Source of the DNA: Pseudoalteromonas sp. N1230-9
Lineage (GTDB): Bacteria; Pseudomonadota; Gammaproteobacteria; Enterobacterales; Alteromonadaceae
Direction of reading: 5' to 3'
NCBI RefSeq assembly: GCF_032716425.1
Contig: NZ_CP090419.1
Span: forward strand, 1,490,001 to 1,554,000
Length of the DNA: 64,000 nt
In this document: positions 1-37,389 of the stretch, in pieces
Position numbering within the stretch: position 1 is the stretch's first letter
How the letters are laid out: each line of letters begins with the position of its first letter
Made by a program: the position numbers and the translations under genes
The notes under the pieces: model-generated
What the model was told of the DNA's origin: nothing
The model's input: the letters and a program-made list of their open reading frames with translations, nothing else
Databases searched by the model: none

Positions 1-902
<902 letters not shown>

Positions 903-992
903 CAACGCCAAACGCGTTTTGTGGCAGCGTAACAGACAGAAGTTAAGAAACTAAAGTAGAATTTACTTAAAATCAGCATTCCGAATTTAGTA

Positions 993-1012
993 GTCGCGAT
1001 TTTATATCGCGC
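993..1012. repeat. Palindromic repeat copy 1 in the 23S-5S spacer
   Basis: The 20-base sequence GTCGCGATTTTATATCGCGC forms a hairpin with arms CGCGAT/ATCGCG. An identical 20-mer occurs at 1451-1470, beyond the rrn terminator. The surrounding bases differ, so this looks like a dispersed REP-type element rather than part of the rRNA duplication. Copies elsewhere in the genome cannot be seen from this window. Confidence 0.6.
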
Positions 1013-1025
1013 TTACAACAGAATA

Positions 1026-1142
1026 CGCTTGGTGACAATAGCGTTTTGGACCCACCTGACCCCATGCCGAACTCAGTAGTGAAACGAAACAGCGCCGATG
1101 ATAGTGTGGCATTTGCCATGTGAAAGTAGGACATCGCCAGGC
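1026..1142 (+). rRNA. rrf: 5S ribosomal RNA, first copy
   Basis: This is the first of two tandem 5S rRNA genes after 23S. It shows the standard 5S core (GACCCACCTGACCCCATGCCGAACTCAG, written here as consecutive blocks GACCCACCTGACCCC and ATGCCGAACTCAG) and closing segment GTAGGACATCGCCAGGC, which pairs with the 5' GCTTGG. The 5' and 3' ends are estimated from the terminal stem. It is followed by a 57-base spacer and a second, nearly identical 5S gene. No tRNA gene lies between 23S and 5S. Confidence 0.95.
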
Positions 1143-1198
1143 TCCTAATTCAGTCGAAAGACTTTAAATTAAAAATAATAAGAAAATCAAACAGAATT

Positions 1199-1316
1199 TT
1201 CTTGGTGACAATAGCGTTTTTGACCCACCTGACCCCATGCCGAACTCAGTAGTGAAACGAAACAGCGCCGATGATAGTGTGGCATTTGCCATGTGAAAGT
1301 AGGACATCGCCAGGAT
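1199..1316 (+). rRNA. rrf: 5S ribosomal RNA, second copy
   Basis: This is a second tandem 5S gene, almost identical to the one at 1026-1142. Visible differences are in the terminal stem (TTCTTGG against GCTTGG, and CCAGGAT against CCAGGCT) and GTTTTTGACC against GTTTTGGACC in the first internal stem. The terminal-stem changes appear compensatory. An rrn operon with an extra distal 5S gene is known from E. coli rrnD. The rrn terminator follows directly. Confidence 0.94.
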
Positions 1317-34853: not shown

Positions 34854-35459
34854 CTACTGCACGCGTGCGGTTAAAAATTCAATGCTTTGCTGTAATAGCA
34901 ATGCGCCATTTGGCGTTAAAATTGACTCAGGATGAAACTGATAGCCAAGGGCATTATCTTGTTGATGGTAAATTGCCATCGGAATATTTTCATAACAAGC
35001 AATTACTTCAACATCATCAGGGACTTTGGTTGCCATTAATGAATGATAACGAGCAACTGGCATTTTATCGCCCATACCCGCGAATACTGGGTGCTCAGTC
35101 AGCGTAATAATTGATGACTTGCCGTGCACAGTTTCGCCTGCATGACCAATAACCCCACCGTAGCTTTGTGTTAGTGCTTGCTGCCCTAAACAGATACCCA
35201 GCATCGGGAAGCGGCCTTTACACAGTTCAATGAGCTCCATTAAACAACCTGCATCAGATGGTGCGCCAGGACCAGGTGAAAGCACTAATAATACAGGCAC
35301 AGTCTCTTGGCACATTTTGTCGAAGATGCTTTGTGCACTGATGTTATTACGGTATACCACTAACTGGCACCCTAACATAGAAAGTTCATCGACTAAGTTA
35401 TAACTAAATGAATCAAAATTATCTAAAAAGTAGATTTTATAGGCTGATGTTGTCGTCAT
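34854..35459 (-). CDS. trpG: Anthranilate synthase component II (glutamine amidotransferase)
   Basis: TrpG supplies ammonia from glutamine to TrpE. The 201-residue class I amidotransferase has the nucleophile Cys in PMLGICLGQQALTQSYGG, the His/Glu pair in LGYQFHPESILTPNG, and LVLSPGPGAPSDAG. Its ATG overlaps the trpE stop by one base (TAATG), a strong sign of translational coupling that would keep the subunits equimolar. Confidence 0.97.
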   Translation of the reverse strand: MTTTSAYKIYFLDNFDSFSYNLVDELSMLGCQLVVYRNNISAQSIFDKMCQETVPVLLVLSPGPGAPSDAGCLMELIELCKGRFPMLGICLGQQALTQSYGGVIGHAGETVHGKSSIITLTEHPVFAGMGDKMPVARYHSLMATKVPDDVEVIACYENIPMAIYHQQDNALGYQFHPESILTPNGALLLQQSIEFLTARVQ

Positions 35460-37027
35460 TATTGTGCCTCGTAAGTCGATTGAATCGCAGTGATCACAGC
35501 TTGTGCTTTAGCGCGGGTTTCATTGGCTTCTGATTGTGGATCTGAATCAAACACCACACCTGCACCTGCTTGCACATAGGCTGTGCCGTTTTTAACAAAG
35601 GCAGAGCGAATAACAATACAGCTATCCATGGCGCCATCGCCCGTTAAATAACCTACTGCACCTCCATAGCTACCGCGGCGTTTTTGTTCGGTTTGACGAA
35701 CTAACTCAGCAGCGCGTACTTTAGGGGCACCCACTAAGGTGCCCATGTTCATACAAGCTTGGTAAGCATGTAGCGCATCGAGTTCAGGTTTTAAAGTACC
35801 AACCACGCGTGAAACTAAATGCATCACTTGTGAGTAGCGGTCTACTTTTAATAACTCTTTCGCGTGACGTGTGCCTGGTACGCTAATGCGGGCAACATCA
35901 TTTCGCGCTAAATCAACTAACATCAGGTGCTCGGCACGTTCTTTTTGGTCGTTGCGAAGTTCAAGCTCAATGCGGCTGTCTAGGTCTGGATTAATTTGCC
36001 CATTAGCAAACTTGCCACGAGGGCGAGTACCTGCAATTGGGTATACCTCAACTTGTTTGCTCTCTGGGCAGTATTTGAGGGCTGACTCGGGCGATGCGCC
36101 GAATAACACAAACTCTTCATCGCGCATGTAAAACATATATGGGCTTGGGTTTTGTTGTTTTAGTTGGCTGTAAGCATGGAGTGAGTCAGGGCAGGCGAGA
36201 GAAAAAGTACGTGATGGAACAACTTGGAAAATATCGCCATCAACGATGTTGTTTTTTAACGTGATGACATGTTCGCAGTATTGCTCGTCGCTAACATCGA
36301 CAGAAATTGGGTTTGAGCCTGCTTGCTTTTGCCCTTGATAGCTTTGTGCATTGTCACATACGGTATTTAAACGTTCTAACTGTTGACCAACCTCAAAACA
36401 ATTAGCATGAACTTCAGGGCCGTTAAATACATTGCCAATTAGCTCGGTTGTTTTTGCTTGATGGTCGATGACAACTAACGTTTCGGCGAGGTAGAAAACA
36501 TAATCAGGGCAGCTGTTTTCGCCGTCAGGTACATCAGAAAGGGTTTCGAAATTAGCAACCATGTCGTAGGCAAACACACCGCCTAAGAACACAGAGAATG
36601 GGTTGTCTGTTGTGCTTTTAATACTGTTGATGCAGCTACGTAGCGCACTAAATGCGTTATCTGCTACTAATTTACTGGCTTCATCAATATCGCTTGCGAC
36701 CTCGTTGTAGGTTAACGTTAATGTGTCTTCTACAAGCTCAGCAGAGCAGTTTTGCACATGAGTTTGTAAATAAGGCAGTAATTGCTTGCCGTTATTTGAC
36801 TGTGCGGTGAGTGTTACCTGTTTGCCTTGGCAAACAATACGTAGCGCTGAGTCAACCAAAATTAGACTTTTTACACTGTCTTTAGAATCAATTTCAGCAG
36901 ACTCTAACAGCAGTGAATTAGGCTTATCGAGTAAACTGTATAACGCAAGTGGGCTACTGATGTAGTCGCGCACTTGAGTGATACTGGTTACTTCACCCGG
37001 TGTCGTTGTTATATGACTAAAAATCAA
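35459..37027 (-). CDS. trpE: Anthranilate synthase component I
   Basis: TrpE makes anthranilate from chorismate. The 522-residue protein keeps the tryptophan feedback site LLLESAEIDSKDSVKSL and the catalytic C-terminal block (FMNMGTLVGAPKVRAAELVRQTE, RRGSYGGAVGYLTGDGAMDSCIVIRSA, QAGAGVVFDSDPQSEANETRAKAQAV). The start is TTG at 37027 with GGGAG 8 bases upstream; an in-frame stop two codons before excludes any longer form. It is the first structural gene, preceded by the double attenuator leader. The rare TTG start may limit TrpE synthesis. Confidence 0.96.
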   Translation of the reverse strand: MIFSHITTTPGEVTSITQVRDYISSPLALYSLLDKPNSLLLESAEIDSKDSVKSLILVDSALRIVCQGKQVTLTAQSNNGKQLLPYLQTHVQNCSAELVEDTLTLTYNEVASDIDEASKLVADNAFSALRSCINSIKSTTDNPFSVFLGGVFAYDMVANFETLSDVPDGENSCPDYVFYLAETLVVIDHQAKTTELIGNVFNGPEVHANCFEVGQQLERLNTVCDNAQSYQGQKQAGSNPISVDVSDEQYCEHVITLKNNIVDGDIFQVVPSRTFSLACPDSLHAYSQLKQQNPSPYMFYMRDEEFVLFGASPESALKYCPESKQVEVYPIAGTRPRGKFANGQINPDLDSRIELELRNDQKERAEHLMLVDLARNDVARISVPGTRHAKELLKVDRYSQVMHLVSRVVGTLKPELDALHAYQACMNMGTLVGAPKVRAAELVRQTEQKRRGSYGGAVGYLTGDGAMDSCIVIRSAFVKNGTAYVQAGAGVVFDSDPQSEANETRAKAQAVITAIQSTYEAQ

Positions 37028-37059: not shown

Positions 37060-37097
37060 AAAAAACAAAACCCCGCGAAGCGATGCTTGGCGGGGTT
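37060..37097 (-). terminator. Attenuator 2: distal intrinsic terminator of the trp leader
   Basis: On the minus strand, AACCCCGC (37097-37090) pairs with GCGGGGTT (37076-37069), with a further inner stem AAGC/GCTT, and is followed by TTGTTTTTT. The competing antiterminator pairs GCTTAGCGGG (37146-37137, at the end of leader peptide 2) with CCCGCCAAGC (37094-37085), one mismatch. Together with trpL2 this forms a complete attenuator immediately before trpE. Confidence 0.88.
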
Positions 37098-37140
37098 CGT
37101 ATAAAGATGTCTATAAATTAGATAGACCCTTACCGTCCCG

Positions 37141-37191
37141 CTAAGCCAGGCGCCACCACCAATGATGTGTAAGAGTTGCTATGTAATTCAT
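37141..37191 (-). CDS. trp leader peptide 2 (three Trp codons)
   Basis: This 16-codon reading frame encodes MNYIATLTHHWWWRLA, with three consecutive TGG codons at positions 11-13. TTTTAAGGTTTT gives AAGG about 8 bases before the ATG, a better ribosome-binding site than that of leader 1. The stop codon lies inside the antiterminator segment, so ribosome position over the Trp codons or at the stop would decide between antiterminator and terminator. It lies downstream of attenuator 1. Confidence 0.85.
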   Translation of the reverse strand: MNYIATLTHHWWWRLA

Positions 37192-37215
37192 TATAAAACC
37201 TTAAAATTTAGATAT

Positions 37216-37242
37216 AAAAAAACCCGCTACATGAGCGGGTTT
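37216..37242 (-). terminator. Attenuator 1: proximal intrinsic terminator of the trp leader
   Basis: On the minus strand, AACCCGCT (37241-37234) pairs with AGCGGGTT (37228-37221), followed by a T run. The classical four-region layout is visible: region 1 CACTCG (37287-37282) can pair with region 2 CGGGTG (37274-37269); region 2 AGCGGGT (37276-37270) can instead pair with region 3 ACCCGCT (37240-37234); region 3 pairs with region 4 in the terminator. Confidence 0.9.
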
Positions 37243-37278
37243 AGAAATCGTTAGACACGACAATTCGTCACCCGCTAG

Positions 37279-37323
37279 TTACGAGTGCCACCACCAAATT
37301 GTGATTTGAATTGTTTTGTTCAT
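37279..37323 (-). CDS. trpL: trp leader peptide 1 (three Trp codons)
   Basis: This 14-codon frame encodes MNKTIQITIWWWHS, with three consecutive TGG codons at 10-12, and ends at TAA just before region 2 of attenuator 1. The ribosome-binding site is weak (TAAGCAATAAC before the ATG). It is the first of two leader peptides in the trp operon leader. Confidence 0.88.
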   Translation of the reverse strand: MNKTIQITIWWWHS

Positions 37324-37353: not shown

Positions 37354-37389
37354 GCATACAGTAAAGCGTACCTATGCCGATACTGTCAA
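37354..37389 (-). promoter_or_regulatory. trp operon promoter with possible TrpR operator
   Basis: On the minus strand, -35 TTGACA (37389-37384), an 18-base spacer and -10 TTTACT (37365-37360) form a good sigma-70 promoter about 30 bases before trpL1. GTACGCTTTACTGTATGC (37371-37354) overlaps the -10 box and matches the recalled E. coli trpR operator GTACTCTTTAGCGAGTAC at 12 of 18 positions, so TrpR repression is plausible but not proven. Confidence 0.6.

Follow-up and report, generated by a model that had tools for sequence, protein, structure and literature searches.

Textbooks present the trp attenuator as a single switch. In the E. coli type (Rfam RF00513) a leader peptide with adjacent Trp codons, alternative 2:3 and 3:4 pairings and an intrinsic terminator precede trpE. 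The region in front of trpE in Pseudoalteromonas is of the same kind, but it contains two complete units in series. Tandem attenuators have been described in the Salmonella mgtCBR leader, which likewise combines two short leader ORFs with ribosome-mediated control; according to the accessible part of that paper, the signals sensed by these leaders differ (ATP and proline), and the authors regard the stem-loops as unlike intrinsic terminators (PMC3641672). The rimP leader of several Gammaproteobacteria has a second terminator in tandem and a potential antiterminator, but neither two leader peptides nor the sensing of one amino acid is part of its description in the portion available (PMC2965389). 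In the locus studied here a single transcript very probably carries two complete ribosome-mediated transcription attenuators in series, both of them reading the same amino acid.

The trp leader and its conservation

The window, i.e. the whole stretch of DNA that was analysed, comprises 64,000 nucleotides of Pseudoalteromonas sp. N1230-9. It encodes a TrpE 99 percent identical to the TrpE of four Pseudoalteromonas records, and six adjacent genes on its minus strand match trpE, trpG, trpD, trpCF, trpB and trpA (Pfam). At the beginning of the window (1-1315, plus strand) lie the 3' portion of a 23S rRNA gene and, after it, two tandem 5S rRNA genes. A plasmid search gave no match. In the direction of transcription (minus strand, 37323-37060), trpE is preceded by a promoter, leader 1 (WWW), terminator 1, leader 2 (WWW) and terminator 2. 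The features are as follows:

37360..37389, minus strand: trp operon promoter, TTGACA (37389-37384), 18 nt, TTTACT (37365-37360)
37279..37323, minus strand: leader peptide 1, MNKTIQITIWWWHS, with WWW; ATG at 37323, stop codon TAA at 37281-37279
37270..37276, minus strand: region 2 of module 1, AGCGGGT, 5' arm of the antiterminator, predicted to pair with region 3 when the ribosome stalls on Trp
37220..37242, minus strand: terminator 1, AAACCCGCT/AGCGGGTTT, then a T-run to about 37214; also detected by the terminator scan
37141..37191, minus strand: leader peptide 2, MNYIATLTHHWWWRLA; ATG at 37191, stop codon TAG at 37143-37141, TAAGG just 5'
37137..37146, minus strand: region 2 of module 2, GCTTAGCGGG, which includes the stop codon of leader 2
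37094-37085, minus strand: region 3 of module 2, CCCGCCAAGC
37069..37097, minus strand: terminator 2, AACCCCGC/GCGGGGTT, arms at 37097-37090 and 37076-37069, T-rich run to about 37060
35459..37027, minus strand: trpE, starting with TTG and heading the controlled operon; PF00425 and PF04715
30467..35459, minus strand: trpG, trpD, trpCF, trpB and trpA, Pfam matches, named from Pfam and gene order

The trp promoter does not appear in the list of a stricter promoter scan, and terminator 2 was not listed by the terminator scan because its loop is longer than the scan permits. A first-pass annotation had proposed two complete attenuators in series, each with its own Trp3 leader, and had suggested RNA folding as a check. 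The elements were found where it placed them, and folding of the minus strand from 37330 to 37040 gave z = -4.23, with none of 200 shuffles as low. A five-codon ORF, out of frame with trpE, begins at an ATG slightly upstream of the TTG start and overlaps it (37034-37017, minus strand); the sequence AATGAGG around this ATG recurs in most of 44 Pseudoalteromonas loci, and translational coupling is possible.

If the two modules work as their layout suggests, RNA polymerase would start at the promoter upstream of leader 1 and, when charged tRNA-Trp is sufficient, the ribosome would reach the stop codon of leader 1 and cover region 2, so that terminator 1 could form. Polymerases leaking past terminator 1 would then meet leader 2 and be tested once more, at terminator 2. 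Under Trp shortage, ribosomes would stall on the WWW of each leader, region 2 would pair with region 3, and both terminators would be pre-empted. The output would be approximately the product of two read-through probabilities, giving a lower leak and a steeper response. The anatomy, its conservation, the placement of the promoter motif and the stall-versus-stop switch in folding come from sequence and comparative computation; termination at both sites, the independence of the two stages and the multiplied response are inferred.

When compared with the Rfam Trp_leader model (RF00513), the two modules of the window scored 33.6 bits (E 4.7e-5) and 19.2 bits (E 0.3), both under the gathering score of 41 bits, so that neither is assigned to the family by this test. 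Among 12 single-attenuator loci only 4 passed the cut-off, 6 matched below it and 2 were unlisted at E 0.01, showing that the cut-off is strict for this order. The model found module 1 in all of 7 other Pseudoalteromonas loci and module 2 in 1 of them, always below the cut-off. The properties that define a leader-peptide attenuator can be recognized individually: both leaders have, by sequence, adjacent codons for the amino acid of the pathway in a short ORF, predicted intrinsic terminators stand before the structural genes, and a stall-dependent antiterminator appears when the RNA is folded before region 4 exists. No riboswitch family reached its gathering score in the window, thus the aptamers that make a tandem riboswitch were not found; nor do the leaders differ in signal as in the mgtCBR type, both carrying the same Trp run.

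Conservation was studied in 80 trpE loci, the best 80 of 590 relatives, of which 45 are from Pseudoalteromonas. Counts were drawn from regions anchored on trpE. A pattern search of the whole family for two TGGTGGTGG blocks was rejected as mostly noise: 79 of 395 genomes matched, many matched stretches resembled coding sequence, and a reversed control pattern matched several genomes too. A TrpE search over the whole class found 6 of 185 genomes at E 1e-80, the genome of the window included. Two W-run leader ORFs precede trpE in 44 of the 45 Pseudoalteromonas loci, and two hairpin-plus-T terminator sites are present in 45/45. Taken together, these two counts make a chance arrangement unlikely. 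One Algicola locus (L047) also has two leaders and two terminators. The other 34 loci have one W-run leader before trpE in 28 cases and a second leader of another kind in 6 (five Rheinheimera and a gammaproteobacterial MAG, L058); far-upstream W-containing ORFs in a few loci were taken as spurious.

The WWW of leader 1 is intact in 44/44 loci and the Trp run of leader 2 in 42/44, its single Trp positions holding in 44, 43 and 43 of 44. The residues N-terminal to the Trp run vary; conservation centres on the run and on the codons overlapping the RNA arms. Leader 2 is weakened in two relatives, to WGW in L006 and to WW in L012. In a third (L038, 1293-1451) leader 1 is followed by two adjacent terminators, leader 2 being absent and terminator 2 retained. 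Most leaders of both kinds have a Shine-Dalgarno match of 3 or 4 nt. Matches of 5 or 6 nt occur before leader 2 in 8/44 loci, as opposed to 0/44 before leader 1, where the match is at most 4 nt throughout; the better ribosome-binding site ascribed earlier to leader 2 is thus a tendency in the genus and not a rule.

Predicted switching and the rival readings

The switch was modelled by folding the transcript as it is just before the 3' arm of the terminator is made, with the edge of the ribosome 12 nt from the A-site codon. Thirty-six loci were used: Algicola L047 and 35 Pseudoalteromonas loci, the latter remaining from the 44 tandem ones once 9 near-copies had been set aside. For a ribosome stalled at Trp codon 1 or 2, the median fraction of region 3 paired upstream was 0.66 in module 1 and 0.70 in module 2, whereas with the ribosome at the stop codon it was 0.03 and 0.09, respectively. 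In each module, 35 of the 36 loci showed a difference between stall and stop of more than 2 nt. Of 9 single-attenuator controls judged in this way, 8 switched; L049 passed narrowly, by 2.6 nt (7.7 vs 5.1 nt), and L193 failed (4.7 vs 4.3). Without a ribosome, region 3 was captured at a median of 0.42 in module 1 and 0.68 in module 2, which suggests that module 2 in particular may have no strong protector hairpin. When region 2 was shuffled, single-locus p values below 0.05 were obtained in 0/36 loci for module 1 and 17/36 for module 2, the values for L002, the sequence nearest to the window, being 0.069 and 0.040.

When the finished leader was folded to equilibrium, most loci preferred the terminator even if the ribosome was stalled. 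With stalls at the first, second and third Trp, module 1 was below 0.5 in 10, 14 and 15 of 45 loci and module 2 in 5, 6 and 1 of 45. The terminator nearly always wins in the complete leader, which makes equilibrium folding a poor test, and it was replaced by the folding before region 4 described above. It follows that the proposed model needs antiterminators that form first, as in classical attenuation.

Coevolution of the arms was assessed by exchanging them between species (35 loci), in permutations that ignore relatedness. Terminator arms fitted their own partner better than those of other species, none of 5000 permutations doing as well in either module; three arms were wrongly assigned (module 1: L043; module 2: L027 and L044), an error expected to weaken the signal. 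For the antiterminators, module 1 gave no sign of coevolution (4569 of 5000 permutations as good) and module 2 a modest signal (103 of 5000).

These data bear on whether both modules are in use. If only one were functional and the other a relic of duplication, degeneracy would be expected in close relatives, one of the observations that the first-pass annotation had named as refuting its proposal. Some signs of it exist: leader 2 is missing in L038 and has a damaged Trp run in L006 and L012, and the Shine-Dalgarno match of leader 1 is short (see above). The terminators show nothing of the kind, being paired in every Pseudoalteromonas locus; the Trp codons are kept in both leaders and the switch geometry is preserved in both modules in 35/36 loci, a retention unlikely across up to 30 percent TrpE divergence. 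A relic is therefore improbable. Leader peptide 2 might alternatively be made for a job in trans, as published for the trp leader peptide peTrpL of Sinorhizobium (PMC7298713, as far as the accessible part of the paper goes). Taking into account that it is the Trp run and the arm-overlapping codons that are conserved and that the N-terminal part varies, we hold this to be most unlikely, the least probable of the readings weighed here.

The modules could also act in parallel, if an internal promoter between them gave rise to a second transcript. A candidate exists in the window, TTTATA-17-TATAAT at 37218-37190, which agrees with the consensus at 10/12 positions; one such match was found where 2.2 are expected in shuffles. 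Transcription from it would begin within leader 2, downstream of the ATG, and the TATAAT coincides with the start-codon stretch of leader 2, a sequence that only a few of the listed species have. The promoter motif of the operon, TTGAC..TTTACT, is found upstream of leader 1 in 44/44 Pseudoalteromonas loci; between WWW1 and WWW2 neither this motif nor TTGACA..TAnnnT occurs in any of the 44. The best promoter-consensus match has a median of 7/12 between the modules versus 10 upstream (44 loci), in a search that ended 30 nt before WWW2 and thereby excluded the candidate. These observations make a second transcript very unlikely. Alternatively, the modules might be coupled into one joint decision, if read-through freed region 4 of module 1 to capture region 3 of module 2. 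With region 3 of module 1 locked away, 11 of 22 loci indeed showed cross-pairing over more than half of the core of region 3 in module 2, but this fell to 1 of 22 when there was no lock, and the cross-talk is not conserved. Moreover, terminator 2 has at least four C-G core pairs in 31/35 loci, one above the capacity of region 4 of module 1. Coupling is accordingly considered unlikely, and two stages that decide one after the other on one transcript remain the preferred reading.

Origin of the second module, second leaders of relatives and TrpR

A TrpE tree built by a quick method placed Pseudoalteromonas in one clade (support 98). Within it L041 and L043 are the first to diverge (the remainder has support 89), and L038, which has no leader 2, comes next on a long branch. 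Downstream of the Trp run, the two modules of L041 are identical at 32 of 38 aligned positions, three of which are a masked GGG, and the similarity in L043 is comparable (score 43 against 44); both leaders of L041 and of L043 carry WWWHS. Elsewhere the similarity has mostly been lost, being detectable (p below 0.05) in 6 of 21 loci including these two. The earlier suggestion was that any duplication must be old or that the second module arose independently. The likeness between modules in the first-branching L041 and in L043 is better explained by local duplication than by independent origin. The second module thus probably arose by local duplication. The sequences are best accounted for if this happened at the base of the genus and the copies then drifted, with leader 2 lost once; in the basal pair, gene conversion may also have produced the likeness. 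Because Algicola lies on a long TrpE branch, its tandem is compatible with one or with two origins, and the two are indistinguishable.

Second Trp leaders of a different design were found in other families. In family f11 (L166-L171, L200-L205) a short second ORF comes after a normal trp attenuator; it encodes WRW, or a single Trp in L171. In the predicted fold this leader is part of a hairpin that sequesters the ribosome-binding site of trpE by base pairing. The median predicted accessibility of the site was 0.03 in the free RNA, 0.55 with a Trp-stalled ribosome and 0.53 when the leader stretch was shuffled, and it rose by more than 0.2 on stalling in 11/12 loci. The f11 leader looks strongly like a translational second stage acting on trpE. 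We are less sure of the Rheinheimera type, where the predicted rise exceeded 0.2 in 4 of 6 loci (L053, L054, L057 and L066) and went in the opposite direction in L064; L122 (G045) was taken as the same genome as L066, hence 6 loci and not 7. Apparently, the same leader slot is used for transcriptional and for translational second stages. A second WRW leader ORF precedes trpE in families f12 and f25 as well. Accessibility rose on stalling in 0/4 loci of f12 (L132-L135) and in 1/9 loci of f25 with the ORF (L177-L180, L208-L212; two further loci are without it), so a masked ribosome-binding site that opens on stalling was not found in 12 of these 13 loci. No terminator was found after the second WRW ORF in the scanned loci L132-L135 and L177-L180.

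TrpR, the DNA-binding repressor, was searched for with E. coli and B. subtilis as controls, which were positive in both searches. Among 147 genomes of the family none had a TrpR match over the Pfam cut-off, and 8 had weak partial matches. A full-length TrpR was found in none of 108 Pseudoalteromonas genomes; weak partial matches in 9 of them lie within positions 31-81 of 88, and one reaches the cut-off (27.0 bits, positions 36-71). Order-wide, 74 of 197 genomes had a match over the cut-off. For the comparison that follows, absence of TrpR was taken from this order-wide search, 99 of whose negatives are not individually named, on the assumption that it drew the same genomes as the search for trpE. 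A second Trp leader was present in 0/33 genomes with TrpR and in 15/47 without it (Fisher p 0.0002), or by family in 0/9 and 4/8 (p 0.03), in a sample of 80 of 176 trpE-positive genomes hand-picked to spread over families, with second leaders labelled by eye and with family relatedness, which inflates the result, not removed. G001 has an ORF of the second type but lacks a first leader, and it was scored as negative. In f11 the sole TrpR carrier among 12 genomes (G428) is also the sole one whose second leader reads as having a single Trp codon.

With 32 of the 47 TrpR-less genomes having no second leader, the absence of TrpR can at most be permissive for it. In Shewanella, according to the accessible part of a study that reconstructed TrpR regulons for eight lineages of Gammaproteobacteria, the trp operon does not belong to the TrpR regulon and is controlled by an attenuator (PMC5343134), which argues against a simple rule that a lack of TrpR control needs two attenuators. 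The report in PMC13178558, in its available part, fits limited control by one attenuator. We infer that in Pseudoalteromonas the second stage may stand in for the missing TrpR. The more general idea, that members of the order without TrpR repeatedly added a second ribosome-based Trp sensor, transcriptional in Pseudoalteromonas and translational elsewhere, which would replace repression at initiation, is put forward tentatively, and we rate it at somewhat less than an even chance.

Comparison with other tandem systems

In open-licence papers (older subscription work being outside this scope) we came across no description of two leader-peptide attenuators that act in series for one amino acid. 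Several systems share parts of the design, and the statements on them refer to the parts of the cited papers that were accessible. Induction of ErmB depends on two leader peptides before one gene (PMC8274638), but there the mechanism is translational attenuation by a drug, with no serial terminators for an amino acid in the description available. Two synthetic pT181 attenuators in series are said to improve dynamic range (PMC3753616); these are engineered and driven by antisense RNA, unlike the trp modules. A natural two-in-series design in nearly all Pseudoalteromonas examined would indicate that ribosome-based control can be stacked, and would provide a natural setting in which to see if stacked terminators multiply and sharpen the response. 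It also provides a hypothesis of how a biosynthetic operon could do without a DNA-binding repressor. The relatives offer built-in comparisons in the form of single attenuators, loss of leader 2 and a translational second stage.

Together with Salmonella mgtCBR, the nearest parallels are tandem riboswitches. Pseudo-cooperative tandem riboswitches, a term used for independent switches in series, are complete one-ligand switches that make their own decisions and together give a more digital response (PMC9481103), and a triple tandem case is described for c-di-GMP riboswitches (PMC4759541). The sensor in these systems is an RNA aptamer, whereas in the trp tandem it would be the ribosome reading Trp codons. 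The second Trp leader over a masked trpE site in f11 and some Rheinheimera resembles the bi-mechanism tandem riboswitches of the same account (PMC9481103), but this variant, which lies outside the window, uses leader peptides. If our reading is true, the second sensors of the TrpR-less genomes would be the leader-peptide counterparts of pseudo-cooperative and bi-mechanism tandem riboswitches.
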